A stretch of 64,000 nucleotides of DNA from Rariglobus hedericola (lineage in GTDB: Bacteria; Verrucomicrobiota; Verrucomicrobiia; Opitutales; Opitutaceae). The position numbers and the translations under genes were made by a program. The notes beneath the pieces were generated by a model. The model searched no databases, was not told the origin of the DNA, and was given only the letters and a program-made list of their open reading frames with translations. Within the stretch, counting starts at the first letter, position 1. Each line of letters starts with the position of its first letter. Location of the stretch: assembly GCF_007559335.1 (NCBI RefSeq), contig NZ_VMBG01000001.1:1054001-1118000 (forward strand). Direction: 5' to 3'. This document shows, piece by piece, positions 19,138 through 44,606 of the stretch.

Positions 19138-20651
19138 CCAAGATACGCATACTTATCGTTGACGACGAGGAGGCCAATCGCGTCACGCTCGAAGCCGTTC
19201 TTTCCCGAGAACCCAACTACCATCTCCACTTCGCGACCAACGGTGCCGAGGCACTGCTGCTTGCTGAAAAAATCGTGCCCGATCTGGTGCTGCTGGATGT
19301 GATGATGCCCGACATGGACGGCTTTGCCGTCTGCCGTCACATCCGAGCCCATCCGCGTCTCAGTCCCGTCCCCATCATCATGCTCACGGCGCTGAACGAC
19401 CAGGCATCGCGCCTCGTCGGCATCAACGCCGGAGCCGATGACTTCATTTCAAAACCTTACGCCTTCGCGGAACTCCGCGCGCGTGTGCGCACAATCACCC
19501 GGCTCAATCGTTTCCGGGTTATCGCCGAACAACGCGCCCGCTTTGAGCGCCTCTTTGCCATCACACCGTCGGCCATCGTCATCGTCTCCCCCGACGGAGT
19601 TATCTCCGCAGTCAACGATCTCGCCGCCGCGTTGCTCGCGCCCCTTGATGTCTCTCCGGTGGAAAACCGTCCACTCTTCACTGGCATGCCTGCCGATGCC
19701 GCCGCCCGACTCGCGGAAATCATCGCCATCACCTGCCGCGACGATACCCCGGGCCCCGCTTCCGAGTTCTCCGTCTCCTTCTCAGAATGCGCCCGCGTCT
19801 TTTCCGTCAAGTCAACGCGCCTCAAGGAAAACGGCCACGTCTTTGCATTGCTTGTCCTTCACGACATCACCGCCGAGGTGCGCGCACGTGAAGAACTCGT
19901 CACGTTGAACACCCGGCTCGATGCCCTCGTGCGAGACCGCACCGCGCAACTCGAAACCGCCAACGAGCTACTGCTCTCCTACACCGCGTTTGTATCCCAC
20001 GATTTGCGCTCTCCTCTGTCTGTAATCCGCGCCTACCTGTCGATGCTCGCGGACGGCGCCATACCCGTTTCCGCAGAGGCTCGCTCCATGATCAAGGAAG
20101 CCTTCGTAGCCAGCGGCATGATGGAAGACATGATCGCCAACATCCTCACGATGGCATCCGACGACCACCACGCGCGCCTGCCCGACAAAGCCATCGATCC
20201 ACGTCCCATTCTTGAAAAACTAGCGTGGAAACTCGCCTCCTTTGTGCCCAAACCGCGCCCTACGATCACCGTGGGCCCGCTCCCCCTGATCTTCGCCTCC
20301 GCACCGTTGGTTGAACGCGTGTTCTACAATCTGATTTCCAACGCCATCAAATACGCCGCCAAGGATCGGGCGATCGTCATCGAGATCGGCTCCACGACCA
20401 CCGCGACCGGCACCGCCATCCACGTGCGCGACAACGGCGTCGGCTTCGATTCCGCTCATGCTGAAAAACTATTCCGCTCCTTTTCACGTCTTCCCGGCTC
20501 GGAGGTATGCGACGGCATGGGACTCGGCCTTTCCCTTATCTCCCGTCTGATCGGCGCACATCACGGTCGTATCTGGGCCGATGGTCGCCCCGGCGAGGGC
20601 GCCACGTTCTTCGTGGAATTTAAAGAAAATGCCACCGTCGTCGCCGCATGA
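19134..20651 (+). CDS. Receiver-PAS-histidine kinase
   Basis: A 505-residue soluble protein: receiver with Asp55 (LVLLDVMMPDMDG), PAS-like domain (about 140-255), coiled coil (about 258-280), HisKA with His289 (FVSHDLRSPLSVIRAYL) and HATPase (NLISNAIKYA; DNGVGFD; GMGLGLSLISRL). An N-terminal receiver controlling a kinase suggests it takes phosphate from an upstream kinase. It is joined by 4-base overlaps to kinase 17437-19137 and to the Cache lipoprotein gene. Confidence 0.87.
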   Translation: MTKIRILIVDDEEANRVTLEAVLSREPNYHLHFATNGAEALLLAEKIVPDLVLLDVMMPDMDGFAVCRHIRAHPRLSPVPIIMLTALNDQASRLVGINAGADDFISKPYAFAELRARVRTITRLNRFRVIAEQRARFERLFAITPSAIVIVSPDGVISAVNDLAAALLAPLDVSPVENRPLFTGMPADAAARLAEIIAITCRDDTPGPASEFSVSFSECARVFSVKSTRLKENGHVFALLVLHDITAEVRAREELVTLNTRLDALVRDRTAQLETANELLLSYTAFVSHDLRSPLSVIRAYLSMLADGAIPVSAEARSMIKEAFVASGMMEDMIANILTMASDDHHARLPDKAIDPRPILEKLAWKLASFVPKPRPTITVGPLPLIFASAPLVERVFYNLISNAIKYAAKDRAIVIEIGSTTTATGTAIHVRDNGVGFDSAHAEKLFRSFSRLPGSEVCDGMGLGLSLISRLIGAHHGRIWADGRPGEGATFFVEFKENATVVAA

Positions 20652-30848: not shown

Positions 30849-30877
30849 TCCCCCCATCCGCTTTGCGGAGTCCGCCT

Positions 30878-32293
30878 ATGAAACGTTTCAGCCTGCCCCT
30901 TCAACTGGGTCTCTACATCGCCGCTTCCGTCCTGCTCACCCTCGCCGTGGCCGCCGGTTTGTATTCACTGGTTCGTTACACACAGAGGGACTCCGAAGGA
31001 CACATCGACATCATCCGAACCAGCAAGGACAGCGCCTATCGCCTGCTCGAGGAATCCTCGCTGGCCCATGCCGCCCTCAACACCTCCCTGCGCATCAAGG
31101 ACCCGGACGAACTTGAGTCGGCGCTTGCCAAACTCAAGACCGGCACCGAAGCGATCAACGCGCTCATCACCACCTTCGGTGAACCGGGAACTCCCTTAAA
31201 AACCGCCTACGGGCGGGAGACCGAGGCAGGGACCAAAAGCATCGGGTTTCTCCTCGCCGGTGAAAACGCCCGCGCGTTTGAAAACCTTCTGGAAGCGGTC
31301 AATCCCGCCCACGACAGTTTCCTCAGCGCGTTGAAGGCCTACAATGACCTCTGCGACGCCCGCGTGCGTGAGTCGGAAAACGAAGCCGCCGTCATGCTCG
31401 CCAGACGTCTCAAAATCGTCTTCAGCCTCTCTGCCGCCGGTCTGCTCATGATCATCGTGCTCGGCTGGTTTTTCCGCCGTCGCATCACCGCCCGGCTGCG
31501 CGTCGTCACCACCGAGATCGCCACCGCCGCCGATCTGGTGGCCAGCCATGCCAGCCGTGCCGCCGAGATGAGCGAGACCCTTTCCCGCGACGCCTGCAGC
31601 CAGGCCGCTTCCCTCGAGGAAACCAGCGCCTCGCTCAACGAGATCAGCAGCCTGTCGAAGGCCAACCACGAGCAGTCGCAGACCGCCGCCACCGTTGCCG
31701 CGGAAGCACGCTCCGCCGCCGAAGAAGGCACCCGCGAAATCGCCGCGCTCCAAATCGCCATGCGCGACATCGAGTCTTCCAGCGACGCCATCGGTAAAAT
31801 TATCAAGGGCATCGACGAGATCGCCTTCCAGACCAACATCCTCGCCCTCAACGCCGCCGTCGAGGCCGCCCGCGCGGGTGAGGCCGGCGCAGGGTTTGCC
31901 GTCGTCGCCGACGAAGTGCGCGCCCTGGCCCAGCGCGCCGCCGCCGCCTCTCGCGACACCGCCGATCGTATCTCTGAATCCATCGAACGCAGCCGTCGCG
32001 GTGCCGCCCTCGGCAATCGCGCCGCCAAATGCCTCGAAACCATCGTCAGTCGCGCCGCCCAGGTCGACGATATCACCCGCCAGATTGCCACCGCCCTCAA
32101 CGAACAGGATCAGGGTATTCATCAGGTGAATGCCGCCATCAGCCAGATCGACACCCTGACCCAGTCCGGAGCCGCCAACGCCGAGCAAGGCGCCGCCAGC
32201 GCGACCGAACTCCAAGGCCAGTCCGCAATCCTCGGCAAATCTGTCGTCACCCTCGAACAGCTCGCCGGCGTCTCGGCTGCGGCCACGACCTGA
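30878..32293 (+). CDS. Methyl-accepting chemotaxis protein
   Basis: 471 residues. ATG at 30878 is chosen over one 15 bases upstream because GGAG lies 8 bases before it. TM1 (about 10-32), helical periplasmic domain (about 35-185), TM2 (about 187-208), then the signalling coiled coil with [20 protein letters not shown] and [21 protein letters not shown]. Final gene of the heme-receptor, porin, Cache unit. Confidence 0.92.
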
Positions 32294-32519: not shown

Positions 32520-34028
32520 ATGAAAAACTGGACCATCGGAAAACGTATTATTGTCGGCGGGGGCACTCTCCTTGCCCTCTTGCTGATTGTCGCCGCCATC
32601 GGCTTCACCGGGCTTGAACGCATCCACACAAAAAGCATCGAATCGCTCAAGGAGGATGCGATCCCCGGCATCACCAACATCGCCGAAATCGCCACCAATA
32701 CGCTGCGCGCCCATGTGCGCATGCTCACGGCGGGCACGGCGACGACTGTTGAAGCCCGCGAACAAAACCTGGCCACCATGGGCAAGCTTGCCACGGAGAT
32801 TCAAGGCTTCCTTGAAACTTACGAAAAATACATAACCCAGGATGAGGACCGGAATAACTTTGAACTGCTCAAAAAGAAGCGTGAAGCCTACGTTCTGGAG
32901 CGCGCCCGCTACGTCGAACTGGTGCGTGCCGGCAAGCGTGACGAAGCCCACGCCTTCGCCGCGGAAGCGCTGGAGAAAACCTACGGAGAGTATCGCGACC
33001 TCACCCTGCTCATGCTTCACTTCAACGAAGATAATGCCGCGAAGGCAACCGACGATTTGGTTTCCATCGCCCGCCGCTCCGTGACCGCTTCGCTCATCGT
33101 CGCCATCGCCAGCCTGGCCATCGCGCTCGCCTTGGGTTGGATCATCATACGCAGCATCAACCGTGCGCTCCGCGAAATGGCGCAGACGCTCGACGACGCC
33201 TCCTCGCAAGTCGGTGCCGCCGCCGCCCAAGTCTCCGCCAGCAGCCAGTCCCTCGCCGAGGGCTCCAGCGAACAGGCCGCCAGCTTGGAAGAAACCAGTT
33301 CGTCCCTCGAAGAGTTCTCTTCGATGACCAAGCGCAACGCCGACAACGCAACCTCCGCCAAATCCCTCTCCGGTGAGACCCGCGCCTCCGCCGAGACTGG
33401 CAACACCGACATGACCGAGATGCGCCAGGCCATGGACGCCATCAAGACGTCCTCGAACGACATCGCCAAAATCATCAAGACGATCGACGAGATCGCCTTC
33501 CAGACGAACATACTCGCGCTCAACGCGGCCGTCGAAGCCGCGCGCGCCGGCGAAGCCGGTGCCGGATTCGCCGTCGTGGCCGATGAAGTGCGCAACCTCG
33601 CCCAACGCTCCGCCCAGTCCGCCAAGGAGACTGCCAGCAAGATCGAAACCGCCATCCAAAGCGGCGAACACGGTGTGCGCATTTCCGACAAAGTCGCCGC
33701 CTCACTCGGCATCATCATGGAAAAAGCCCGCCAGGTAGATGAAATCGTCGCCGAAATCGCGGTCGCCTCCCAAGAGCAGACTCAAGGCATCAGTCAGATC
33801 AACACCGCGATGAGCCAGATGGACAAAGTCACCCAGTCCAACGCCGGCAGCGCCGAGGAAACCGCCGCCGCCGCCGAAGAGCTCAACAGCCAGGCCGCCG
33901 TGTTGCAGGACAACGTCAGCCAGCTCCGTCATCTCGTCGGTGGCACCCAGGCGTCCCCCGTGCCCTCCACGCAAGTTCGCCCGACCACCAAAATCGGCAC
34001 CGCCCGCGGCCACGCCATGCCCGCCTGA
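32520..34028 (+). CDS. Methyl-accepting chemotaxis protein with four-helix-bundle sensor
   Basis: A 502-residue receptor: TM1 (about 11-31), 4HB_MCP-type periplasmic domain (about 33-188), TM2 (about 190-212), cytoplasmic signalling domain with conserved tip [20 protein letters not shown]. It stands alone after a 226-bp gap and ends in a strong terminator just before the cassette array. Confidence 0.93.
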
Positions 34029-34052
34029 TCTCGCTTCGCCAACCCGCAGACA

Positions 34053-34090
34053 AAAAAGGCCGGACGTCATAAGTGACGCCCGGCCTTTTT
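34053..34090 (+). terminator. Intrinsic terminator after the last chemoreceptor
   Basis: AAAAAGGCCGG ... CCGGCCTTTTT with an inner stem (ACGTCA/TGACGC) around TAAG. It closes the chemoreceptor transcript immediately left of the cassette array and resembles the terminator on the other side (42924-42963). Confidence 0.92.
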
Positions 34091-34185
34091 ATTCATCAAA
34101 TTATTTGCCGCGTTTTGCGTTCAACCCCCGCTTTCCACGGTGCAATCACGAGACGTGACAACTAATGTCATTCTTGCAGCGCGCA

Positions 34186-34572
34186 CTATTGGGCCGGATT
34201 GGTGGATTCAGGAAGTGGGCTGATTTCCATTTTATCGATCAAGCCCTGCGCAACAGTGAACCGATGCCCAACGTGGACATCGGCCAAGATTGTCCCCGCC
34301 AAGTCGCGAACAACCTGATGAACATCGACTAAAATCCTTCCGTCATCTTCCAGATAAAATGCTACTGGATCCACGTGTGGGTTGATCTCGCTCCATTGCT
34401 CCGTCCAATAAGCACGAATTTCTTCCGGCCCACGGACAAACCCACCCTTAAACGCTTTCGGCCAAGCTACATCTGGTTTCATGGTAGCGAGAGCAGCGTC
34501 GATGTCTCGCGCGTTGAATGCGGTGTAGGCCGCACGGAGCAGTGCGATTTCTGATGCAGATGGATTTGGCAT
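34186..34572 (-). CDS. SnoaL/NTF2-like protein at the array edge
   Basis: A 128-residue single-domain protein of the SnoaL-like NTF2 fold (IALLRAAYTAFNARDIDAAL; MKPDVAWPKAFKGG; GPEEIRAYWTEQWS). The family includes enzymes and binding proteins, so no reaction is named. It lies beyond the degenerate last attC site (34621-34695) with no attC after it. It is either flanking chromosomal DNA or a cassette fixed in place by loss of its recombination site. Confidence 0.75.
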   Translation of the reverse strand: MPNPSASEIALLRAAYTAFNARDIDAALATMKPDVAWPKAFKGGFVRGPEEIRAYWTEQWSEINPHVDPVAFYLEDDGRILVDVHQVVRDLAGTILADVHVGHRFTVAQGLIDKMEISPLPESTNPAQ

Positions 34573-34620
34573 AGGCGAAGCGCTGAAGGGATATAAAAGA
34601 GGCTAAATGACGACTGCCTT

Positions 34621-34695
34621 GCGAAATGCTTTAGATCAGACATGACCGTAGCCGGCGTGACAGTGCGGGTCATTGTCTGTAACGACTGGTTGGGC
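34621..34695 (-). repeat. attC site A, last in array, degenerate
   Basis: Right core GTTGGGC is intact, but the opposite core reads GCGAAAT instead of GCCCAAC. Inner boxes are kept (CTTTAGATCAGACAT, TGTCTGTAACGACTG). It is the shortest site and probably inactive. Confidence 0.75.
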
Positions 34696-34702
34696 TCCGT
34701 TT

Positions 34703-35194
34703 TCATTTCTTCTCTAATTCGTAAAATGGTGTTTTGGAGTCTATTTTATATAGCTCACCGCCGTCCTTCAGGCTTCTGAATACATCAGGTAAAGGAAGTA
34801 GAGTATCTAAATAAGTCAGTGATTCTTTTCCGTCTAAGACGAAAAGACCGGAGCGTCCCGCCCATGTGCTGCAAAATCCACATAAAGTAACCATCCCGCC
34901 TTTATTGTCACCTTTCACAATCTCGACCAGATATCCAGGCGAATGACCACAAAAGGGGACGTCGTTGCTTCGGGATAATTCTTTCTTTAATAATTCGGCC
35001 AATTTTTCCGATTCTTTAAGCGTAAGATCACGGGTGCCGATTACATCTGCCTGCTTGTCGCCGTAAAATGTAGGCATGAATTTTTCGGTGAATCGAACAC
35101 CGCGTGGATCAATCGCATAGACGCGATAGCGGATCGATTCCGCTTTTACTGCGGAGATCAATAGAACGAATAAGACTAAAGCTCGAATTTTCAT
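34703..35194 (-). CDS. Cassette 16: secreted hypothetical protein
   Basis: A 163-residue protein with a signal peptide (MKIRALVLFVLLISAVKA). Two Cys pairs (PFCGHS and LCGFC) could form disulfides. No family recognised. The stop TGA lies in the conserved box directly before attC A. Confidence 0.7.
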   Translation of the reverse strand: MKIRALVLFVLLISAVKAESIRYRVYAIDPRGVRFTEKFMPTFYGDKQADVIGTRDLTLKESEKLAELLKKELSRSNDVPFCGHSPGYLVEIVKGDNKGGMVTLCGFCSTWAGRSGLFVLDGKESLTYLDTLLPLPDVFRSLKDGGELYKIDSKTPFYELEKK

Positions 35195-35200
35195 TATATT

Positions 35201-35288
35201 GCCTACCGTTCTGGGTCAGACATGCGGGCCCTGTGCTATCGCATTCATGGGGAGCGTAAACCGCATTGTCTGTAGCCGCTGGTTGGGC
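35201..35288 (-). repeat. attC site B
   Basis: Cores GCCTACC and GTTGGGC; the first differs from RYYYAAC at one base. Inner boxes GGGTCAGACAT and TTGTCTGTAGC are conserved; the centre is unlike other sites. Confidence 0.8.
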
Positions 35289-35298
35289 TCCGTGGTTT

Positions 35299-35850
35299 TC
35301 ATTTCTTTTCTTCGGTGAAAATTTGGACTTTCACATCGACTGTCCATGACTGTGGTTTTGTGGGAAATGGATTCAGGAAAAATGAACTGTATTCAGAAGC
35401 CTCTAATAATACATCGAAATGACTCTGATCTAATTTGGTGATGGTTCCTGTGATCAAACTCTTACTTGAATTCCCTTCTCCGCCACTCTTTCGCTCTCGC
35501 GTAAATATTAATGAACTATCGCTTCGGCTTCTTACGGTGACAGGTTCGACCCACATTGGCGGCCTGTCATGATAGCCTAAAACTAGATAAAAAATTTGGG
35601 TCTCTGGGTCTTTGCAGATAGAGAAAAAATCTGGCCTATTCGGGTTCGTTGAGACGCCTTGAAGCAGCGTGTTCTCGACAATAGAAGAATTCGCGATCCA
35701 TTCGGGCGGAGAACCTGAATAGGAAAATACCCCAGAATGCATATCGAAAGGCCCTAAAAATACCACTGGGTGAATCTTCTTTTGAGTGGGCGCGCTACAT
35801 CCAGATATGAAAAATACTGTAAGCGCCAGAATTGATACGATTATTTTCAT
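35299..35850 (-). CDS. Cassette 15: hypothetical lipoprotein
   Basis: A 183-residue protein with a type II signal: lipobox FISGC, Cys18. The remainder is beta-rich with no known motif. The start lies 7 bases from the attC C core, and the stop TGA is part of the conserved box before attC B. Confidence 0.7.
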   Translation of the reverse strand: MKIIVSILALTVFFISGCSAPTQKKIHPVVFLGPFDMHSGVFSYSGSPPEWIANSSIVENTLLQGVSTNPNRPDFFSICKDPETQIFYLVLGYHDRPPMWVEPVTVRSRSDSSLIFTRERKSGGEGNSSKSLITGTITKLDQSHFDVLLEASEYSSFFLNPFPTKPQSWTVDVKVQIFTEEKK

Positions 35851-35856
35851 TTTTTG

Positions 35857-35946
35857 CCCAACGTTCCGGGTCAGACATGCCGAGCCAAAGACTTTAAAAG
35901 CTGAAAGGGGAAGCGCCGAGGTATTGTCTGTAGCCGCTGGTTGGGC
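35857..35946 (-). repeat. attC site C
   Basis: Cores GCCCAAC and GTTGGGC are fully complementary. The central region (CATGCCGAGCC ... GCTGAAAG) is nearly the same as in site F. Confidence 0.9.
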
Positions 35947-35956
35947 TCCGTGGTTT

Positions 35957-36289
35957 TCATTTCATTGGTTCACAATTAAATACAACCGTTCGAAATGTTG
36001 CTTCTCCATCCATATAAATACGGATAAAGTCATAAGATCGCTCTGGCTCTCGTGGCCATGCTGAAAGAATCTTTCTTATTTCCGCTTCATCGGCATATCG
36101 GGCCATATAGTAAAGCCGACCAGTGGATTCATTTTCTAGTGATATAGAAAACACTCGAACTGGCTTTTTAAAATCCGACTGCGCGATTTTCGACTGCGCG
36201 ATTTTCAAAGCAGCATCGAATTGGAGGATTTCTTCTGCGCTGCAAAATGTCGACAACGAAATAAATAACAGGGTGATGAGTGATTTCAT
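35957..36289 (-). CDS. Cassette 14: secreted hypothetical protein
   Basis: 110 residues from the ATG at 36289 (an upstream start would lie inside the attC core). Signal peptide MKSLITLLFISLSTFCSA. It contains a small in-frame duplication, KIAQSKIAQS, from a perfect 15-bp tandem repeat at 36177-36206. Stop TGA is in the conserved pre-attC box. Confidence 0.65.
   Translation of the reverse strand: MKSLITLLFISLSTFCSAEEILQFDAALKIAQSKIAQSDFKKPVRVFSISLENESTGRLYYMARYADEAEIRKILSAWPREPERSYDFIRIYMDGEATFRTVVFNCEPMK
36177..36206. repeat. 15-bp perfect tandem duplication
   Basis: GACTGCGCGATTTTC occurs twice in a row inside cassette 14 and adds five residues in frame. Confidence 0.85.
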
Positions 36290-36295
36290 TTTATT

Positions 36296-36393
36296 GCCCA
36301 ACGCTTTAGATCAGACATGCGGTTTGCTGGCGCGACGGGTGCGAAGCAGCCGGCGTGACAGCAAACTGCATTGTCTGTAACGCCTGGTTCGGC
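36296..36393 (-). repeat. attC site D
   Basis: Cores GCCCAAC and GTTCGGC. Inner boxes conserved; 98 bp. Confidence 0.88.
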
Positions 36394-36400
36394 TCCGTTT

Positions 36401-36619
36401 TCATTCGTCTATTCCGATGGTTATGATCTTCGCAACCGGAACAGCGGCAAAATAGGATACAGCACCAGCTGCCAATATTGGCAGAAATGCGCCAAGGGCC
36501 ATTCCTGCCATGCCGCTCATCATCAGCGCAGTAATTAGCAGTGCAACTGCCCCATAACCTAGGAGAAGAATTCCGATAGATCGGAAAATACAAACGAGAA
36601 CTTTTTGGTATCGTTTCAT
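36401..36619 (-). CDS. Cassette 13: small membrane protein
   Basis: 72 residues from the ATG at 36619. Two hydrophobic helices (about 10-32 and 40-65) with Gly/Ala-rich cores and a basic N-terminus. No family recognised. The stop is the conserved TGA before attC D. Confidence 0.6.
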   Translation of the reverse strand: MKRYQKVLVCIFRSIGILLLGYGAVALLITALMMSGMAGMALGAFLPILAAGAVSYFAAVPVAKIITIGIDE

Positions 36620-36631
36620 GATTTTTATTTT

Positions 36632-36730
36632 GCCGAACGTCAAAGATCAGACACGACCGCAGCTGGCGCGGTGCGTGCGACAGCACGATCCGTGACAGCT
36701 GTGATCGTTGTCTGTAACGACTGGTTCGGC
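36632..36730 (-). repeat. attC site E
   Basis: Cores GCCGAAC and GTTCGGC, compensatory changes that keep pairing. The centre resembles sites O and K (ACGACCGCAGCTGGCGCG). Confidence 0.9.
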
Positions 36731-36740
36731 TCCGTGGTTT

Positions 36741-37139
36741 TCATTTGATTCTGATGTATGAAATTACGCTTTCAGGATTTTCCCATTCGGAAATCGGCTT
36801 ATCGCTCCACTCAAGCACGACCTTGTAGGTAACTTTATGGTATTTCTCTTTCATCTTTTCGATAGCTTCTTTCCCGATTGTTTGGCCGCCCACCTTTTCT
36901 TTTCTTCCTTTTTGTGCGGCACTAAACCAGCCGGAGCCAACAATAGAACTTTGATCGAGATTCCAAGAGCCATCGCCATCAGTAGACCAGCCTTCGCAAA
37001 TTATAGTGAATCTTAGCGGAGCACCTGAGTCATTAAAGCAACTGACGACTAACGACCCATCGGACGCAGAATATGATTCTGAGCGTGGTGCTCCCAGCAG
37101 GAAGGACGGCAAGAGTAGCAGTAGAGTTAGGTATTTCAT
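36741..37139 (-). CDS. Cassette 12: secreted hypothetical protein
   Basis: A 132-residue protein with a signal peptide (MKYLTLLLLLPSFLLG) and a beta-rich N-terminal half (SLVVSCFNDSGAPLRFTIIC). No family recognised. Ends in the conserved TGA box. Confidence 0.68.
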   Translation of the reverse strand: MKYLTLLLLLPSFLLGAPRSESYSASDGSLVVSCFNDSGAPLRFTIICEGWSTDGDGSWNLDQSSIVGSGWFSAAQKGRKEKVGGQTIGKEAIEKMKEKYHKVTYKVVLEWSDKPISEWENPESVISYIRIK

Positions 37140-37147
37140 GTTTTATT

Positions 37148-37238
37148 GCCCAACGTTTCGTATCAGACATGCCGAGCCGGAGACTTTAAATGCTGAAAGT
37201 GGAGGCGCCGAGGCATTGTCTGTAGCCGCTGGTTAGGC
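37148..37238 (-). repeat. attC site F
   Basis: Cores GCCCAAC and GTTAGGC. The centre is nearly identical to site C. The right core contains the stop codon of the next gene. Confidence 0.9.
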
Positions 37239-37685
37239 GAGTTTGATTTTCCCGACTCTTTCTTCGAATGATCCATAAATTGCGACATCGGCTCCGTAGA
37301 AGCCCTGTAACGTGGAGATCCTGAGCAGGGTGCGCTGAATCAAACTACTCAAATTTGCCGGAATGCGGCGCGCATCCTCTCCAAGCCAATCGATAAGGGC
37401 GATGTAGCAACTCGCGCCATCAGGGTCCAGAGCGCTATCATCCGAGAGCAAGTAGCGCGAATAGGCCTGAAGGTAATAGCAGCATGGGATAAATGGCATC
37501 CACATAACATCCTCCTGATAGAGCATCGAATTCTCGCCGAACATCATTTCCGCTTCTTCTAGCGATTTACCAAAGAAATGTTTGTGGGCGGAAGTCGTGT
37601 CCAACGTCCACTCCTCGCTGTGCCATTCTGATTCGCGTGGCAGCTTGGTGAGCAAATCACTGGGCAATACTTTCGGAAGGCGCAT
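37233..37685 (-). CDS. Cassette 11: hypothetical cytoplasmic protein
   Basis: A 150-residue protein with no signal or TM helix, Trp/Tyr-rich in the middle (MWMPFIPCCYYLQAYSRYL). Its last two codons, GCC TAA, are bases of the attC R'' core, so the recombination site supplies the stop. Function unknown. Confidence 0.7.
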   Translation of the reverse strand: MRLPKVLPSDLLTKLPRESEWHSEEWTLDTTSAHKHFFGKSLEEAEMMFGENSMLYQEDVMWMPFIPCCYYLQAYSRYLLSDDSALDPDGASCYIALIDWLGEDARRIPANLSSLIQRTLLRISTLQGFYGADVAIYGSFEERVGKIKLA

Positions 37686-37691
37686 TTTTTT

Positions 37692-37790
37692 GCCTAACGC
37701 TTTAGATCAGACATTTCGTGCGGTGGCACACAAAGCGGCTCCGCCGCGACTGTGACAGTGCACGAAATTGTCTGTAATGACTGGTTCGGC
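37692..37790 (-). repeat. attC site G
   Basis: Cores GCCTAAC and GTTCGGC, 99 bp. Member of a near-identical set with H, J, M and N (TTTCGTGCGGTGGCACAC in the arm). Confidence 0.92.
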
Positions 37791-37813
37791 TCCGTGGTTT
37801 TTATTTTCCAAAA

Positions 37814-38074
37814 TCATGAGGTCTGCTTTAGCTTTCGATAGGCAGCTAATAGTCTTCCGCGATTACCCCAGTCCTCCGTCTCATCCTCGACTTTTGGATT
37901 TATGAAAGTCCCATCATCAGATATGATAGGAATAGACTCTAATCCCATCGCTGCGGCTGCTTTTTTCTGCTCCGGCGTTTCGCTTCGAATGCCAAGCATC
38001 TCTTTTGTATGCATCCAGTCGGCATCGAAGACCTGTTCGAATGCGGCGATAAACTCTTTTGTTTCGGGGCTCAT
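37814..38074 (-). CDS. Cassette 10: small hypothetical protein
   Basis: An 86-residue soluble, charged protein (MSPETKEFIAAFEQVFDADW; ends RLLAAYRKLKQTS). No motif recognised. The stop lies 24 bases before the attC G core, the longest 3' gap in the array. Confidence 0.6.
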   Translation of the reverse strand: MSPETKEFIAAFEQVFDADWMHTKEMLGIRSETPEQKKAAAAMGLESIPIISDDGTFINPKVEDETEDWGNRGRLLAAYRKLKQTS

Positions 38075-38080
38075 AATTTT

Positions 38081-38179
38081 GCCGAACGTTATCGGTCAGA
38101 CATTTCGTGCGGTGGCACACAAAGCGGCTCCGCCGCGACTGTGACACTGCACGAAATTGTCTGTAACGACTGGTTGGGC
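38081..38179 (-). repeat. attC site H
   Basis: Cores GCCGAAC and GTTGGGC, 99 bp, same set as G, J, M and N. Confidence 0.92.
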
Positions 38180-38190
38180 CTCCGTGGTTT

Positions 38191-38667
38191 TCATTTTTTG
38201 GGTCTTCTATCGGGCCAATCCCACGCTTTATGATTCAGTCGCTTATCTGGAGGAAGTGGACCAAAAGAAAAGGTGGAGGCTGTAGAAAGATACTTCTGCG
38301 GTATTTCTTCTCTTTCAATAAAAGCTTTGATGATAATACGCGCATCGCGCATTTGGAGAACCTGGGATGTATCAACTTCGATATAGCCATCCATACTCTC
38401 AATTCCGGTTTTTACGCCTGTGCAGATACTGCGGCCCCAAGTCAGATGCTTAAAATTGCGTTCTGAGTCATAGGTTCTCGTTTCAATAGTAAGTTGATTT
38501 TTGGACCCCGCGCATTGGACGTAGCTGCCATCCTTCAGCTCAAAAACGATGAAATCGGGGCCTTTATTTGCGAAGTAGGATAATCGGGATAAAACGATCT
38601 CCCAGTCGTATAGAAATATGACTCCACCGTTCGCTGGATGGAGGAGGACTTTTCCCGGGAATGGCAT
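38191..38667 (-). CDS. Cassette 9: hypothetical protein
   Basis: 158 residues from the ATG at 38667; the longer frame would run through attC I. The sequence is beta-rich (PANGGVIFLYDWEIVLSRL; FIVFELKDGSYVQC) with no signal peptide. Unrecognised. Ends in a TGA in the conserved box. Confidence 0.65.
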   Translation of the reverse strand: MPFPGKVLLHPANGGVIFLYDWEIVLSRLSYFANKGPDFIVFELKDGSYVQCAGSKNQLTIETRTYDSERNFKHLTWGRSICTGVKTGIESMDGYIEVDTSQVLQMRDARIIIKAFIEREEIPQKYLSTASTFSFGPLPPDKRLNHKAWDWPDRRPKK

Positions 38668-38677
38668 TTTATTTTTT

Positions 38678-38780
38678 GCCCAACGCTCAAGGTGAGACGC
38701 GATCTGCGCTGGCGCGGAGCGTGCTGCTCGGAGCACGATCCGTGACAGTGAGGATCGTTGTCTCTGGCGCCTGGTTCGGC
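38678..38780 (-). repeat. attC site I
   Basis: Cores GCCCAAC and GTTCGGC, 103 bp. Inner boxes GAGACGC/TGTCTCTGGC carry paired changes relative to the other sites. Confidence 0.85.
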
Positions 38781-39118
38781 TCATTTTTATTCTTCAATTT
38801 GATTAAAATCCAAAAAAATCGGCCGCTCTCCGTTCCGAATCTATTTACTTGGTAGTAGTAGCCGGGTTCGGCCGGTGCGTCTACTCTCACGTCCTTCTCA
38901 TTTTCCTTCCAGCTAAGATTAATCGATTGGTTGGGATTTCCGACAAATCCCCCCACGTCGTTGTAAGGGCCCTCCGAAGGCCCTCCATACCTAACGACTG
39001 TGGCTGCTTCGGTATTATATTGGGCCAAGATCTCGGCCTGACTGCGCCCGACGAACTCGCTGCGGTAGCAGCCTGATAGAGCAATCACGGATGCGATAAA
39101 AATAACTACGTTTTTCAT
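38687..39118 (-). CDS. Cassette 8: lipoprotein reading into its attC
   Basis: 143 residues from the ATG at 39118. Lipobox ALSGC near residue 15 predicts a lipoprotein; the following SQAEILAQYNTEAATVV resembles small SmpA/OmlA-like lipoproteins, loosely. There is no stop before the attC: after KLKNKN the frame continues EPNQAPETT through site I and ends at 38687, so about 35 residues of the tail are attC-encoded. Confidence 0.6.
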   Translation of the reverse strand: MKNVVIFIASVIALSGCYRSEFVGRSQAEILAQYNTEAATVVRYGGPSEGPYNDVGGFVGNPNQSINLSWKENEKDVRVDAPAEPGYYYQVNRFGTESGRFFWILIKLKNKNEPNQAPETTILTVTDRAPSSTLRASADRVSP

Positions 39119-39122
39119 TTTT

Positions 39123-39221
39123 GCCGAACGCTTTAGATCAGACATTTCGTGCGGTGGCACACAAAGCGGCTCCGCCGCGACTGTGACACTGCACGAAATT
39201 GTCTGTAACGACTGGTTCGGC
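39123..39221 (-). repeat. attC site J
   Basis: Cores GCCGAAC and GTTCGGC, 99 bp, same set as G, H, M and N. Confidence 0.92.
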
Positions 39222-39228
39222 TCAGTTT

Positions 39229-39660
39229 TCATTTCTTCTCCTGAAGTATCAACATGAAGCTACCGCGATCGAATGCATGAAAGTGCTCTGTTTTGCATAT
39301 CCTCACAAAATGCCCGTGGTATACCGCAGGCTGCGTCGAGCTTAGCGATCCAATATACGTGCTGATCCAAACCCCTTCGCGGCCCTTAGTCTTACGTATC
39401 ACTGAAAAGGAGCTCTCATCCTTTTCGATTACGGAAACCTTCCCATCGCCCTCCTTGATAATAACTAGACCTTCCGGGTTAACTTCGATGACAATCGATT
39501 CCGATTGCGCCAGCGAGATAGCTTGATCGTTCAGCTGCCCCTGCTCAACCAGCAGATATGTGCCAGGCTGAATCTGTAGCACTGGCTGAGGCGGTGGTGG
39601 TTCAAGCCCATACGAACTCGTATATAAAAGAATGCTAAGTAGTAGGGCTGTGATTTTCAT
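39229..39660 (-). CDS. Cassette 7: secreted hypothetical protein
   Basis: A 143-residue protein: signal peptide (MKITALLLSILLYTSSYG), a Pro run (EPPPPQP), then beta-rich sequence (SIVIEVNPEGLVIIKEGDGK). No family recognised. Ends in TGA of the conserved box. Confidence 0.68.
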   Translation of the reverse strand: MKITALLLSILLYTSSYGLEPPPPQPVLQIQPGTYLLVEQGQLNDQAISLAQSESIVIEVNPEGLVIIKEGDGKVSVIEKDESSFSVIRKTKGREGVWISTYIGSLSSTQPAVYHGHFVRICKTEHFHAFDRGSFMLILQEKK

Positions 39661-39666
39661 ATTTTT

Positions 39667-39764
39667 GCCGAACGTTTGAGGTCAGACACGACTATGGCTG
39701 GCGCGGAGGCTGCGCAGCAGCATCCGTGACAGCCATAGTCGTTGTCTGTAGTGACTGGTTGGGC
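39667..39764 (-). repeat. attC site K
   Basis: Cores GCCGAAC and GTTGGGC, 98 bp. Confidence 0.88.
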
Positions 39765-40273
39765 TCCGTGGTTTGAAATACTATAGACTCCCGATTGGTC
39801 ATCAGCATCGCGAAATAAGATGCTGCCGCGTGGGCATCGGAAAATAAATTCTGATTCCGCTCCGAAACTTGTCTGAATATATGTGCGACAAAGCTGGTTC
39901 TTTCGGTGCACACGGCAGCTATAAAATGCGATGCCGTGATTTCTTTCTTTTTGCCTTGTTTGGCCCAGCGTCCCGCACGCTCTAAAATAAATTGAAGGCG
40001 GGGAGTATGGGGCAACGTGACAGGAATCGGCCTTCCGGTGATAACCTGGGCTCCCTTTTCGAGCTCGGCCCAAAATGCGCCCTGATCAATAGGCAACTGA
40101 CGAAGTATAGCGGCGGCATGGCTTGATTCTGGCAGATCTCGCAGACTAAGAAAAACATGCTCAACGCCAACATAATCATGCGAATAACGCCGAGCACGTT
40201 CATGGGCGGCTTTGATAACCGTCGAAAGCTCTGAGCTGATCTTTGGCTTAAAAAAGTGTGCGAACGGGTTCAT
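39692..40273 (-). CDS. Cassette 6: Clp N-terminal (R) domain protein reading into its attC
   Basis: 193 residues from the ATG at 40273; an upstream start lies in the attC core. Residues about 10-125 form a Clp_N double repeat as in ClpA/B/C (AHERARRYSHDYVGVEHVFL; HTPRLQFILERAGRWAK; ITASHFIAAV) with no AAA+ module, so it may act as an adaptor or decoy for a Clp protease. There is no stop before the recombination site: after IVFQT the frame reads TEPNQSLQTT, translated from attC K. Confidence 0.78.
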   Translation of the reverse strand: MNPFAHFFKPKISSELSTVIKAAHERARRYSHDYVGVEHVFLSLRDLPESSHAAAILRQLPIDQGAFWAELEKGAQVITGRPIPVTLPHTPRLQFILERAGRWAKQGKKKEITASHFIAAVCTERTSFVAHIFRQVSERNQNLFSDAHAAASYFAMLMTNRESIVFQTTEPNQSLQTTTMAVTDAAAQPPRQP

Positions 40274-40279
40274 TATTTT

Positions 40280-40382
40280 GCCCAACGTTTGAGGTCAGAC
40301 ACGAATCGCGCTGGCGCGGAATGTGCAGCTCGGAGCACATTCCGTGACAGTGCGGTTCGTTGTCTGTAGTGATTGGTTAGGC
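40280..40382 (-). repeat. attC site L
   Basis: Cores GCCCAAC and GTTAGGC, 103 bp. The centre is nearly identical to site P (CGAATCGCGCTGGCGCGG). Confidence 0.9.
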
Positions 40383-40832
40383 TCCGTTTTCAACTTCTTG
40401 AAGAATTTGGATTAACTTAGCGGGATAGCTTCTGATTTCCTCGTTGGATTCCTGCATATTTCGTAACTCCCGTCGCACGCCAAACCAATATTTTAGTCCT
40501 AAATCTTCTGAGTATTTAGTGGATTCGATATCCTTATAAAAACCCTCAAGCTGCGTGATCTGCCCGTTGCATGTGACTATTGCGGACTCAATACTCTTCT
40601 TGTATCTGGGGTCTCGTTTGCTAGACGCCAACTGCAGGGCGGTCTCGAATGATTTAAGATGTGATCTAGCCTCGATGATTTGGAGTCGAATGCCACTGAG
40701 TGTATCGTCGCGCATTTGCTCAAAGACCTGCTCTGTCTGGAGGCTGCCCATCGAGCGACTTTCGTTCCAAGCCAATGCGGATATTATCAGGGCGCCGAAG
40801 GCTATGATATTTGAGATATTTGGCTTGGTCAT
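40377..40832 (-). CDS. Cassette 5: membrane-anchored helical protein
   Basis: A 151-residue protein with one N-terminal TM helix (about 7-22) and a long helical body (LQIIEARSHLKSFETALQLA). Function unknown. The last codons GGA GCC TAA overlap the attC R'' core. Confidence 0.68.
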   Translation of the reverse strand: MTKPNISNIIAFGALIISALAWNESRSMGSLQTEQVFEQMRDDTLSGIRLQIIEARSHLKSFETALQLASSKRDPRYKKSIESAIVTCNGQITQLEGFYKDIESTKYSEDLGLKYWFGVRRELRNMQESNEEIRSYPAKLIQILQEVENGA

Positions 40833-40841
40833 ATGCTTTAT

Positions 40842-40940
40842 GCCTAACGCTTTAGATCAGACATTTCGTGCGGTGGCACACAAAGCGGCTCCGCCGGGAC
40901 TGTGACACTGCACGAAATTGTCTGTAACGACTGGTTGGGC
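40842..40940 (-). repeat. attC site M
   Basis: Cores GCCTAAC and GTTGGGC, 99 bp, same set as G, H, J and N. Confidence 0.92.
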
Positions 40941-40951
40941 TCCGTAGGTTT

Positions 40952-41414
40952 TCATTTCTGGGCGAGCTTTAAATACACGATTATCGGGAAAATCGAGGAC
41001 AGTGAAAATATGACACCTGCCGTAACTAAAAAAACATCCTGAAATCTAATTCCTCTGAATAAGCGAGATTCGCTAAAACTGATGGGGTCAAAATACACAT
41101 CCGTCACATCCCCCCTTCTTAAATAAACACATTCCGGATTTGTTCGAGGTCGATATCAGGGAATTCCATTTTCCGGTATAGGCTCTATCATCAACGACAT
41201 AATGATACTTAACCTTATACTCTATCGCAATTCGTGATCGTCCTTTGCCTTTGGTTCGGTGGGATTCTTCGGATACCTCCTCAATCAATCCATTGGTTTT
41301 TGGCCACTTGCGGGAAGCGAGCGCGCGCTTGACGTCCGGAATTCCTGCGTAGATCGCAATCACGCCAAATGCGACGAATACGAAAGCGATCAAAATGGCG
41401 GCGGATAATGGCAT
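40952..41414 (-). pseudogene. Cassette 4: DUF3592-like membrane protein, frameshifted
   Basis: The frame starting at 41414 encodes a TM helix (about 5-25) and a DUF3592-like domain (PDVKRALASRKWPKTNGLIE; AIEYKVKYHYVVDDRAYTG), but shifts out of frame at a run of six G (41110-41115, C on the plus strand). In another frame it continues GDVTDVYFDP, then a second TM helix (LVTAGVIFSLSSIFPIIVYL) and ends in the conserved TGA at 40952-40954. Removing one G would restore a complete protein, so this is a recent mutation, a slippery site or a sequencing error. Confidence 0.7.
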
Positions 41415-41424
41415 TTAATTTTTT

Positions 41425-41523
41425 GCCCAACGCTTTAGATCAGACATTTCGTGCGGTGGCACACAAAGCGGCTCCGCCGCGACTGTGACACCGCACGAAA
41501 TTGTCTGTAACGACTTGTTAGGC
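41425..41523 (-). repeat. attC site N
   Basis: Cores GCCCAAC and GTTAGGC, 99 bp, same set as G, H, J and M. Confidence 0.92.
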
Positions 41524-41931
41524 TCCGTTTTTGTTTTCAAAGGATATACGATTAAATCCGAGCTTTTTCAGATCGTCTAGTATCCGAGTAAATATCTGAA
41601 AATCATCAACCTCCATGATGATCTTAATGACTCTGGTTCGATCTTCGTTAGTCAGCTTTTCTTTCAGTTCCGTCACCTTGAATCCTGCGCCATCAAGCGA
41701 TATCTCACCTGCTGATCTGACCCTAATAAATATCGGTTCCGATTTTTCTGGATCTGGCTTTGGTAGAATTGAATTGGGGACTAGCGAGCTATCTATGACG
41801 ACTTCTTTCTGCTTAAGATCGATAACTGTCTTCGCTCCGATTTTGTGCGCTTCGCGCATGTCGATGTATGCAAATACACCGACGATCAATAGCGCCACTG
41901 CGCCTAGCGATATCCAAATCATTTTATTCAT
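41518..41931 (-). CDS. Cassette 3: ExbD/TolR-like protein
   Basis: A 137-residue protein with one N-terminal TM helix (about 5-22) and a C-terminal domain with ExbD/TolR pattern (IFIRVRSAGEISLDGAGFKV, a helix LKEKLTNEDR, IKIIMEVDDFQIFTRILDDL, LGFNRISFENK). True ExbD has an Asp in the TM helix for proton use; none is evident here, so it may be a non-energising relative. The last two codons GCC TAA come from the attC core. Confidence 0.65.
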   Translation of the reverse strand: MNKMIWISLGAVALLIVGVFAYIDMREAHKIGAKTVIDLKQKEVVIDSSLVPNSILPKPDPEKSEPIFIRVRSAGEISLDGAGFKVTELKEKLTNEDRTRVIKIIMEVDDFQIFTRILDDLKKLGFNRISFENKNGA

Positions 41932-41934
41932 TTT

Positions 41935-42037
41935 GCCTAACGACTAAGATCAGACACGACCGCAGCTGGCGCGGAATGTGCGGCTCGGAGCACATTCCGT
42001 GACAGCTGTGGTCGTTGTCTGTAACGCCTGGGTAGGC
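41935..42037 (-). repeat. attC site O
   Basis: Cores GCCTAAC and GGTAGGC (one base off GTTRRRY). The centre resembles sites L and P in one part and E in another. Confidence 0.82.
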
Positions 42038-42210
42038 TCTATAGTCATTCGATGACTAGGGAGATACACAGGCGAGGGTTTGGTGGTTTGGGTGGATCGA
42101 AATTGGATCGAGGCGGTGCCGCTGGGTTCGGACTTGAGAAACGTAAGAAGGCTTCGCCCCGTGGCTTCCACGCTTGCGGTCTGTCTTTGGTTTGAATTTC
42201 CGACTTTCAT
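41950..42210 (-). CDS. Cassette 2: doubtful open frame in a short cassette
   Basis: The only ATG-started frame (86 residues) reads straight into attC O and has no recognisable feature. A second frame ending in a normally placed TGA has no start codon and an upstream in-frame stop. The roughly 220-bp cassette may be gene-less, carry a decayed gene or act through RNA. Confidence 0.25.
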   Translation of the reverse strand: MKVGNSNQRQTASVEATGRSLLTFLKSEPSGTASIQFRSTQTTKPSPVYLPSHRMTIEPTQALQTTTTAVTECAPSRTFRASCGRV

Positions 42211-42253
42211 ATAACTCTGGCTACTCGCTCGCTGCTTCCGTGAATTCCGTTTT

Positions 42254-42355
42254 GCCTACCGTTTGAAGTCAGACACGAATCGCGCTGGCGCGGAATGTGC
42301 GGCTCGGAGCACATTCCGTGACAGTGCGGTTCGTGTCTGTAGTGACTGGTTGGGC
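42254..42355 (-). repeat. attC site P, first in array
   Basis: Cores GCCTACC and GTTGGGC, 102 bp, centre nearly identical to site L. Confidence 0.85.
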
Positions 42356-42362
42356 TCCGTTT

Positions 42363-42647
42363 TCATACGGTGATACTGCCATCGAGCCATCCGGAAATCA
42401 GCGATGCTCCGTCCTTCGCTTTCCACACGAACTCACGATCAATCGGATAATATGCGAAGATGCCTTCTTCTTCTTTTTTGACGGCGAAAGAAATGCCATC
42501 GACTCCAGGGCCGCCAACTTCGAGCCAACCGCCATCTTCATGTAACTTCCAATCTGCGGACGTGCGCAGAAGCCAATATTGTTCGGTCGCAGAATAGAAT
42601 CCAGCTTCGGGTATCTGTCTGACAGAGAAGGCTTCGAATGCGCTCAT
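42363..42647 (-). CDS. Cassette 1: small hypothetical protein
   Basis: A 94-residue soluble protein (GGWLEVGGPGVDGISFAVKK; IFAYYPIDREFVWKAKDG). No signal or TM helix; unrecognised. It is the cassette nearest the putative attI-like end. Start ATG lies 7 bases from the boundary core; stop TGA is in the conserved box. Confidence 0.62.
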   Translation of the reverse strand: MSAFEAFSVRQIPEAGFYSATEQYWLLRTSADWKLHEDGGWLEVGGPGVDGISFAVKKEEEGIFAYYPIDREFVWKAKDGASLISGWLDGSITV

Positions 42648-42989
42648 TTTATTTGCCCAACAGTGTTATTCGCACAGACTCAGTGCGGCTTTTGCAGGTT
42701 TTTGGAAAGAGGGCAGTAAGCATTTTCTGGTTTGTAAGTCATTGAATTCTAAATGGGTAATTTTCGGGTGCGGCTTTTGCCGGGTTGATATCTGACCGGT
42801 AAAACCGGGACTCGACGTTGCGGTGTCCTCAAGGCTGACACGGACTTATTTTCATCTGAGTTGCGACTTTAAAAACTAAATCGCGAGCGGCAATTCGCTA
42901 TGTCCGGGAGTTTGAAGGCACACGACAAAGGCCGGGCATCCAAAGAAGCGCCCAGCCTTTGTCTCCCCCCGCCTGAAAGCACACTGCGG
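42648..42989. other. Gene-free edge of the array with attI-like core
   Basis: A single core GCCCAAC (42655-42661; GTTGGGC on the minus strand) is not followed by attC inner boxes, as expected of an attI or insertion point. Beyond it there is no integrase frame on either strand. A 13-bp direct repeat GTGCGGCTTTTGC occurs at 42683-42695 and 42768-42780. The csrA terminator lies at the right end. No convincing promoter was seen. Confidence 0.5.
42924..42963 (-). terminator. Terminator of the flgF-csrA operon
   Basis: GACAAAGGC(C)GGGC pairs with GCCC(A)GCCTTTGTC. It is 27 bases past the csrA stop and resembles the terminator on the left side of the cassette array. Confidence 0.8.
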
Positions 42990-43244
42990 TTATGGCGCCG
43001 GTTTGGGCGGCGCGACGATCTTGGGCAGCGCGAGTTTGGGTAGGGCGGCTTTTTGTCCGGGGGCCACGGCGGCGGATTGGTTGGTCGCGGCGATGTCGGC
43101 GAGCACTTCCTTCCGGAACACCGGCACCTCGCGCGGGGCGGAAATACCGATCTTCACCGTGTCACCATCGATGCGCGATATGCGGATCTCGATGTTGTCA
43201 CCGATGACGATCGATTCATTTACCTTGCGGCTGAGAACGAGCAT
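42990..43244 (-). CDS. csrA: CsrA translational regulator with Pro/Ala-rich tail
   Basis: 84 residues. The CsrA/RsmA core is typical ([38 protein letters not shown]), with the RNA-binding Arg in APREVPVFR. The tail from about residue 55 is an Ala/Pro/Lys-rich extension about 25 residues longer than in E. coli CsrA. It lies 12 bases after fliW, whose product sequesters CsrA until flagellin accumulates; flagellin mRNA is the usual target. Confidence 0.93.
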
Positions 43245-43256
43245 GGCGGATGGCGT

Positions 43257-43694
43257 TTAGCTGGCGGTGACGAGCGGGTGGCGGACGTTGAAGCGGGCAT
43301 GGTTGGACAGCACCACTTGCTTGGCAAGACCCGTGCGCCGGTTGATCACGAGCGGACTGACCAGATTGACCGTCGCGGTGGCCGGCAGGGAGCGACTCAC
43401 CGTGACGATATTGAGGATGAGCGCATCTTCGGGACCGGTTATGCCGAGAAAAGCCGCATCCTCGTCAAAGAGCTCCAACTCGTAATCGGGAATGACGCCG
43501 CCCGGCTCGATCACGACGAACTGGATCGTCTCGGGCCCGTGCAATAAGAGCCACCGAAACGGCGCCTGCTCGGGGTCGAGCAACAGTTCGAACGATTTGA
43601 ACTCGGAGAAACCGATCAGCCCTTGAGGCAAGCTGAAGCTCGGAAACGGGGCCTCGGGGGACGGGGCAACCAGGGAATCGGAAGTGACTTTCAT
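43257..43694 (-). CDS. fliW: Flagellar assembly factor FliW
   Basis: A 145-residue protein that binds CsrA and flagellin, coupling flagellin translation to secretion. Family patterns are clear: FSLPQGLIGFSEFKSFELL, WLLLHGPETIQFVVIEP, and TVNLVSPLVINRRTGLAKQVVL (around residues 108-129). It sits between flgL and csrA, the common order. Length is typical. Confidence 0.92.
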   Translation of the reverse strand: MKVTSDSLVAPSPEAPFPSFSLPQGLIGFSEFKSFELLLDPEQAPFRWLLLHGPETIQFVVIEPGGVIPDYELELFDEDAAFLGITGPEDALILNIVTVSRSLPATATVNLVSPLVINRRTGLAKQVVLSNHARFNVRHPLVTAS

Positions 43695-43709
43695 GGTGTC
43701 GGGAAAAAA

Positions 43710-44606
43710 TTAACGGAGATAATCGAGTAGGGAAAGGTTCATGATCTTACTGGCGGACGCGAGAGCCGCTTGATACGAGGTCGTGGTCTGGCTGAGTTTG
43801 ACCATGGTGCCGGCGAGATCGGCATCGGCCTCGGCGGAGGCGAGGTTCTCCAGACTGTCGGCACGCGATGTTTGCTGGGTCTTGGCCACATCGAGCCGCA
43901 GCTGAATGGCGCCGTTTTCGCTGATCGCACCCAGGATCGTGTCGGTCGAACCCTCCAGCCCTACTCCCGCGGCATGCACCGTGGTCGTGTCGTTGACGTT
44001 GAGCGCATCGCGCAACGCGACCAGCCGGTTGATCAAATCGCGGATGCCCTCGTTGGTCGCACCATCGGTGCGCGGAGCAATCGTCGCAGTCTCCGAAAGC
44101 GGGATCGAGGCCCGCTCCAGATTGCCGGCGTAGGTTGCGGCGGTGATCTGACCGGCGCCATCGCGGGCCACGGTGAATGGCGCGGTGTCGAGCGCGGTGC
44201 CGGCAAACAGATAGTCGTTTCCAAAGCGGGTGTTGCCCAGATGCACGGCCTGTTCGAGCAGCTGGTTGACCTCGGAGCCATAAGCGCGCGCCGATTCCAG
44301 GTTCAACACACCGCCGCCCAGCGTGGAGAGTTCGCCGGCGCGGGTGAGCAGATTATTGAGGCCGGTGAGCCCGCTGTAGCTCGCCTGCGCGAGGTTCGTG
44401 CCGACATCGATGTTTCGTTTATACTGGAGGATCTGGCTCTGCTCGTTGCCGATCGAGAGCATGCGCCCCATCGCAGCGGGATCATCGGAAGGGAGGAAGA
44501 TGCGCTGATTGGTCGAAACCTGTTTCTGCAACTGGGCCTGCTGCGTGCCCAGTTTTTGCAGTTGGGAGATGACGTTTTCCGAGGTGCTACGAGTGGGGAC
44601 GCGCAT
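43710..44606 (-). CDS. flgL: Hook-filament junction protein FlgL
   Basis: A 298-residue flagellin-like junction protein (HAP3). N-terminal D0/D1 (ISQLQKLGTQQAQLQKQVST; FLPSDDPAAMGRMLS) and C-terminal helix (TSYQAALASASKIMNLSLLDY) are characteristic. It follows flgK by 106 bases and precedes fliW by 15. It connects hook and filament outside the cell. Confidence 0.92.
   Translation of the reverse strand: MRVPTRSTSENVISQLQKLGTQQAQLQKQVSTNQRIFLPSDDPAAMGRMLSIGNEQSQILQYKRNIDVGTNLAQASYSGLTGLNNLLTRAGELSTLGGGVLNLESARAYGSEVNQLLEQAVHLGNTRFGNDYLFAGTALDTAPFTVARDGAGQITAATYAGNLERASIPLSETATIAPRTDGATNEGIRDLINRLVALRDALNVNDTTTVHAAGVGLEGSTDTILGAISENGAIQLRLDVAKTQQTSRADSLENLASAEADADLAGTMVKLSQTTTSYQAALASASKIMNLSLLDYLR

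Follow-up and report, generated by a model that had tools for sequence, protein, structure and literature searches.

A cassette array beside csrA in Rariglobus hedericola retains an integron attI head and probably derives from a platform that lost its integrase gene

Here we describe an integron-type gene cassette array in Rariglobus hedericola (Verrucomicrobiota, Opitutaceae), found in a window of 64,000 nucleotides (nt) from the assembly GCF_007559335.1 (contig NZ_VMBG01000001.1, positions 1,054,001 to 1,118,000 of the forward strand); positions without a contig name are those of the window. Over about 8 kb (34619-42355), sixteen related sites, each 75-103 nt from R'' to R', separate small genes that all lie on the minus strand, which is the alternation that the original prediction had reported from the letters alone. 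The array lies inside a 2.4-Mb contig, between csrA and a methyl-accepting chemotaxis gene, and starts at an attI (recombination site at the head of an integron) resembling that of a complete integron on another contig of the same genome (C5). No integrase gene stands beside it, and we consider it likely, from the sequence features set out below, that the locus represents a sedentary chromosomal integron from which the integrase gene (intI) has been lost. The features are as follows, from the attI end onwards, with cassette genes called and assigned by Pfam searches of the cassette proteins, most of which gave no match; lengths are in amino acids (aa), and ORF stands for open reading frame.

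42655 to 42670, minus strand: attI core, plus-strand sequence GCCCAACAGTGTTATT, crossover point of cassette 1, identical to the C5 attI
42662 to 42812, plus strand: relic of the attI-to-intI intergenic leader, matching C5:5585-5757 (blastn E 2e-13), integrase coding region missing beyond
42363 to 42647, minus strand: cassette 1 gene, 94 aa, no known family
42252 to 42355, minus strand: attC 1, R' is GGTAGGC
42037 to 42252: cassette 2, no clear gene
41933 to 42037, minus strand: attC 2, R'' is GCCTACC
41518 to 41931, minus strand: cassette 3 gene, 137 aa, weak ExbD/TolR similarity (E 1e-4, below the Pfam cut-off)
41423 to 41523, minus strand: attC 3
40952 to 41414, minus strand: two ORFs of cassette 4 (40940-41423), probably a frameshifted DUF3592 gene (E 0.0055)
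40840 to 40940, minus strand: attC 4
40377 to 40832, minus strand: cassette 5 gene, 151 aa
40278 to 40382, minus strand: attC 5
39692 to 40273, minus strand: cassette 6 gene, Clp N-terminal domain, extends into its own attC
39665 to 39764, minus strand: attC 6
39229 to 39660, minus strand: cassette 7 gene, 143 aa
39121 to 39221, minus strand: attC 7
38687 to 39118, minus strand: cassette 8 gene, lipoprotein-like, extends into its own attC
38676 to 38780, minus strand: attC 8
38191 to 38667, minus strand: cassette 9 gene, 158 aa
38079 to 38179, minus strand: attC 9
37814 to 38074, minus strand: cassette 10 gene, 86 aa
37690 to 37790, minus strand: attC 10
37233 to 37685, minus strand: cassette 11 gene, 150 aa
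37146 to 37238, minus strand: attC 11, weak fold
36741 to 37139, minus strand: cassette 12 gene, 132 aa, signal-peptide-like start
36630 to 36730, minus strand: attC 12, R'' not matching the start of its own cassette, as at one other site
36401 to 36616, minus strand: cassette 13 gene, 71 aa, membrane protein
36294 to 36393, minus strand: attC 13
35957 to 36289, minus strand: cassette 14 gene, 110 aa, signal-peptide-like start
35854 to 35946, minus strand: attC 14, weak
35299 to 35850, minus strand: cassette 15 gene, 183 aa, lipoprotein-like
35199 to 35288, minus strand: attC 15, weak
34703 to 35194, minus strand: cassette 16 gene, 163 aa
34619 to 34695, minus strand: attC 16, decayed, R' degenerate
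34186 to 34572, minus strand: SnoaL-like gene (PF12680, E 1e-10), possible 17th cassette without a readable attC
32520 to 34028, plus strand: methyl-accepting chemotaxis gene, left flank of the array
42990 to 43244: csrA, right flank of the array

The sixteen sites are built like the attC sites of integron cassettes. Their R boxes read GTT(G/A/C)GGC with the corresponding complements, and the mutually complementary RYYYAAC/GTTRRRY cores described by the original prediction hold loosely: C occurs in the RRR part of several boxes, one pair has the variant form GGTAGGC/GCCTACC, and the R' box is lost at the last site (ATTTCGC). When folded as single-stranded DNA, the good sites lie at z -6 to -9 relative to shuffles, the weak ones being number 11 (37146) and the last three (14, 15 and 16). 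Imposing the attC structure on the site alignment pairs 85.6% of the cells, versus 22-35% when one arm is slid by 1-3 columns, and 14 pairs have changed on both sides, with double changes in 58 cells versus 22.5 in shuffles. The fold proposed as a check of the prediction is therefore present, together with covariation. With a covariance model built on the sixteen sites, about 80 attC are detected in the whole genome. Of 76 genomic sites, taken in circular form, 74 fold more stably as the bottom strand, the strand used by integron integrases (PMC2727003). An unpaired extra base after L'', in the R''-L'' arm, is also seen.

Evidence for the movement of the cassettes comes from their boundaries. 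Cassettes are cleaved at G^TT, so that the TTRRRY part of an integrated R' box belongs to the next cassette, and if cassettes move as units, R'' is expected to agree with the 5' end of the cassette to which it belongs rather than with the adjacent R'. In the window array R'' matches its own cassette start in 14 of 16 cases, versus 3 of 16 for the R' of the same attC (permutation p 1e-5); over all arrays of the genome the figures are 64/72 and 21/72, the best of 20000 permutations reaching 38. The rare variant GCCTACC/GGTAGGC is found at both ends of one cassette. This is direct evidence, at the level of sequence, that the cassettes were inserted one by one as units via a G^TT crossover, and the folds, the covariation and the box matching all agree with the predicted attC/gene-cassette layout.

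Strong hairpins placed at tight distances from stop codons might instead be intergenic RNA hairpins, or some other repeat family, among ordinary genes. An Rfam search gave no match above the gathering scores, and the own-cassette box match, the bottom-strand bias, the additional base in one of the arms, the presence of an attI head and the absence of the locus in relatives point to cassette recombination, making this explanation scarcely credible.

The sequence in front of the first cassette identifies the head of an integron. The attI core GCCCAACAGTGTTATT occupies the equivalent place in the C5 integron, and about 150 bp past it align to the end of the C5 attI-to-intI intergenic region (67.8% identity; local score 73, with a maximum of 34 in 1000 shuffles), so that the head (42655-42812) is matched over its full length. 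The homology fades at about the point where the integrase start codon is expected, and a low-stringency tblastn search with IntI over 33000-44000 found no integrase or remnant, in line with the original prediction, which had seen no tyrosine recombinase gene. The 13-mer GTGCGGCTTTTGC occurs twice in the head (42683-42695 and 42768-42780), so the relic keeps a habit of these heads, in which a word beside attI is repeated near intI. Core identity, leader homology ending near the intI start and the retained word together indicate that the array either was a complete integron platform or descends from one; its attI is predicted from its likeness to C5, identical in the core and homologous in the leader. 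On the right the element thus extends to about 42812, beyond the 42661 given previously, and the left end, placed at 34621, may include the SnoaL-like gene.

In many integron heads of the family intI is preceded by an inverted repeat, roughly GCTTTTTGCGGTTG-N8-CCCGGCAAAAGC, as seen in the window head, at C5:5599-5764 (L015) and in loci L019, L020, L022, L023, L024, L096 and L106. Its outer word varies by species and recurs beside attI; a word of at least 9 bases is common to both places in 37% of 49 non-redundant heads versus 9% for mismatched heads. The repeat possibly serves integrase binding or intI regulation. The repeated word was also considered as a genome-wide operator and rejected, as the one pattern searched matched only the C5 head.

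The search for an integrase in the rest of the genome, suggested with the prediction, yields a single intact integron integrase in the assembly, the IntI at C5:5764-7125 (TIGR02249, 372 bits in a profile search), which has phage-integrase and SAM-like domains and readable tyrosine-recombinase residues (GSGLR, HVLRHSF and LLGHTSVETTQKYLH). Its gene is divergent from its own array (C5:1-5623), whose attC sites are of the same family as those of the window. All attC clusters except that of the window run into contig ends, as repeats do, with head ends at C1 right, C4 left, C5 left and C5 right and tail ends at C1 left, C2 right, C3 left and C4 right; joined head to tail, these would give about five array loci in the genome, the window array included. 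A broken second integrase of another type (C5:58678-59970; 18678-19970 of locus L017) heads another array; its N-terminal part is 54% identical to the integrase of a same-genus genome (G002), its C-terminal 41 residues share 93% identity with the intact C5 IntI, and a GIY-YIG-like ORF lies in the gap.

The existence of these other arrays bears on two further explanations. The shared attC family and the several arrays that end at contig edges would be expected if the window array were a fragment of the C5 integron, displaced by rearrangement or misassembly, but it lies well within its contig with its own attI, while C5 retains both attI and intI; the presence of two heads excludes the simple splitting of one integron, and we regard such an origin as highly improbable. 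The intact IntI could also have acted in trans to place cassettes at an attG-type site, where an array grew without ever being a full integron; such attG insertions are a known route by which arrays arise away from intI (Loot et al. 2024, as cited in PMC11023631). For an attG the flanks should be chance-like and the first cassette joined to unrelated host DNA, whereas this array begins at a true attI followed by homology to the integrase leader, which leaves off-target insertion very unlikely. Having an attI and a relic intI leader to itself, the array probably arose neither as a C5 fragment nor by off-target insertion. As to the wording of the original prediction, a cluster of attC sites lacking integron integrase (CALIN, a class of IntegronFinder; PMC9024848) or a part separated from its integrase, the former stands, since there are well over the two attC sites required, no intI nearby and hence no complete integron (functional intI beside attI and array); separation from C5 is disfavoured. 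Off-target insertion, intI loss and rearrangement have been proposed as routes to CALINs (PMC8618304), and intI loss fits best here, given the head homology and the lack of an integrase remnant beyond it.

The preferred reading is therefore an integron platform with a lost intI rather than off-target cassettes, since the head homology stops about where intI begins. The locus would once have had, or would have been copied from a platform with, the usual layout of divergent intI, attI and cassette array. Cassettes would have entered attI one at a time by G^TT crossover on the folded attC bottom strand, and entry at attI would place the youngest cassettes near 42655 and the oldest near 34619. Coding sequence of the integrase would then have gone from about the start codon on, presumably by deletion given where the head homology ends, leaving attI, the intergenic leader and the array beside csrA. 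As the attI core and most window attC sites look intact and belong to the same families as those of the C5 integron, the C5 IntI probably remains able to excise and insert cassettes at this locus in trans.

Fold stability declines along the array with distance from attI (rho 0.74 for fold energy, p 0.001), as does the covariance-model score (rho -0.52, p 0.04), and over six arrays the mean correlation is -0.43, with 0 of 2000 permutations as low. Several points weigh against the reading just given. The attC scores behind the gradient come from a model built on the same sites and are thus not independent, and the window head contains no sigma-70-like promoter that we could find. The genomes compared include no same-species strain with intI at this spot, so loss in place is not directly seen, and nearly as good a fit is a head that arrived as a copy lacking intI, or one that was moved to this locus once intI was gone. 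No window cassette is common to the other arrays of the genome, which leaves present activity unsupported and suggests that the window array may be frozen; the cassettes that the other arrays have in common are 93-100% alike, which fits traffic between those arrays.

Copying or moving of the attI-leader module after intI loss, with or without cassettes, would mean that no integrase ever stood at 42.8 kb. Platforms of this kind do seem to multiply: in another genome of the family (G017), two integrase-less heads (C1:180776 and C1:7080055; L111 and L113) are 86% alike over 540 bp, and their likeness continues past the point where they depart from the integrase-bearing head, from which it follows that integrase-less platforms also duplicate. 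In R. hedericola itself the C1 right and C4 left heads are alike past attI (73% over 270 bp). The window head is 68% identical to the C5 head and has no close copy in the genome, and no marks of a mobile-module boundary are present, so that we judge an origin without intI unlikely for this locus, and loss of an intI once present remains the favoured reading.

The array is specific to this lineage at this point, since the csrA-fliW regions of ten relatives hold no attC, a result that answers the presence-or-absence part of the comparison proposed earlier; the gene adjacent in the three nearest relatives is for chemotaxis, for a histidine kinase or for a PhoH-type ATPase. Searching with the IntI protein leads to named loci of Opitutaceae, Opitutus, Candidatus Didemnitutus and other Verrucomicrobia, and in the same-genus genome G002 over 60 attC form one 47-kb array beside an integrase that is intact but different. 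A 16-base attI pattern, which demands an intact core and so is unable to measure how often attI decays, was found in 56 of 150 family genomes, and its reversed form, used as a control, in 1. Among 43 minus-strand hits at least 2.5 kb from a contig end on the integrase side, an integrase gene lies within 2.5 kb of attI in 7 and none beside the other 36, a count that misses divergent integrases below the search threshold. Twenty heads were read from genomes in which the contig with attI represents most or all of the chromosome, and 11 of these heads lack an integrase in the at least 2.7 kb examined; most of the 11 have a correctly oriented attC nearby on the cassette side, the nearest model match being 1.5-3 kb away for L119 and L122. 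Some of these heads are copies of the integrase-bearing head of their own genome and show that intI has been lost elsewhere in the family with attI kept: in one genome (G070) an integrase-less head is 91% identical over 300 bp to the integrase-bearing one and breaks off inside intI. Several attI-headed arrays with one integrase may thus be a pattern of the family.

On this basis we tentatively propose, as a possibility that we hold to be rather doubtful, a distributed integron in this bacterial family, in which one integrase gene serves several dispersed attI-plus-leader platforms that shed, or never had, intI; the window array would then be a satellite maintained by recombination in trans and not a dead remnant.

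The cassette proteins have almost no family matches in Pfam. None of the ten searched against a defence-gene library gave a match, nor did the one used to scan IMG/VR. Proteins without a known family are usual in integron arrays. The SnoaL-like gene, which has no match among 36 relatives, is probably a further cassette with an unreadable attC. Beyond it, tandem methyl-accepting chemotaxis genes (30863-32293 and 32520-34028) adjoin the left edge of the array, within a large flagellar/chemotaxis region. Terminator-like GC-rich hairpins (family D8) flank the array at 34046-34088 and 42918-42960; the earlier view that the flanking transcripts are terminated has these hairpins in its favour and the terminator scan, which called neither of them, against it.

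Cassettes with unrelated genes in all arrays of the genome have a common flank just 5' of attC, ATGAAAAC(CAC)GGA, as at 34695-34706, 35288-35301 and 36730-36744 of the window. The flank often supplies the stop codon of the gene, stops clustering 10, 7 or 0 nt before R'' or 6 nt into R''. G002 (arrays L066-L068) has a common flank of its own that is different, as if new cassettes received a genome-specific attC-plus-flank module. An ATG in the flank (MKTEPNQ... frame) was considered as the start of a translated coupled leader; the G002 flank reads differently, and the ATG remains an observation only. Three arrays share a 168-172 bp cassette with no ORF of 40 codons, in at least 5 copies that are 93-100% identical (C1, L061; C4 right, L065; C5 left, L015), with a more distant copy in a fourth array (C2); it may be a regulatory or RNA cassette.

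Verrucomicrobiota are among the phyla listed with integrons (PMC8618304), and attI is poorly described outside class 1 (PMC9024848). With sixteen tandem attC and no intI nearby, the window array is a well-supported CALIN, longer than the average of about 6 attC (PMC9024848), and CALINs can be mobilised in trans by a functional IntI (PMC12444791). Unlike a typical CALIN, it keeps a recognisable attI and integrase leader, and a single intact IntI and about four further arrays occur elsewhere in its genome; what sets it apart is this head together with the pattern in the family. In Xanthomonas sedentary chromosomal integrons the integrase decays or is deleted while the array and attI region are kept (PMC12444791), much as here, but there one ancestral ilvD platform decays, whereas here a genome has several platforms headed by attI, most of them lacking intI, and one attI core recurs across the family. 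In Treponema phagedenis, attC sites and cassettes likewise remain after intI loss, with no intI in the genome and no attI reported (PMC3607928), whereas R. hedericola has an intact IntI elsewhere. Our search of the open-access literature turned up no description of one integrase shared by several attI-headed arrays, and no paper about the integrons of this family.

Integrase-less arrays are usually treated as decayed leftovers or off-target insertions. In this family a single 16-base pattern exposes a recognisable attI, which shows many integrase-less arrays to be headed platforms; a genome often has several of them, along with a single integrase or without any. The presence of a head offers a way to separate CALINs formed by intI loss from off-target ones in sequence data. 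If the platforms are active, cassette storage and expression would be spread over several chromosomal loci under one recombinase.

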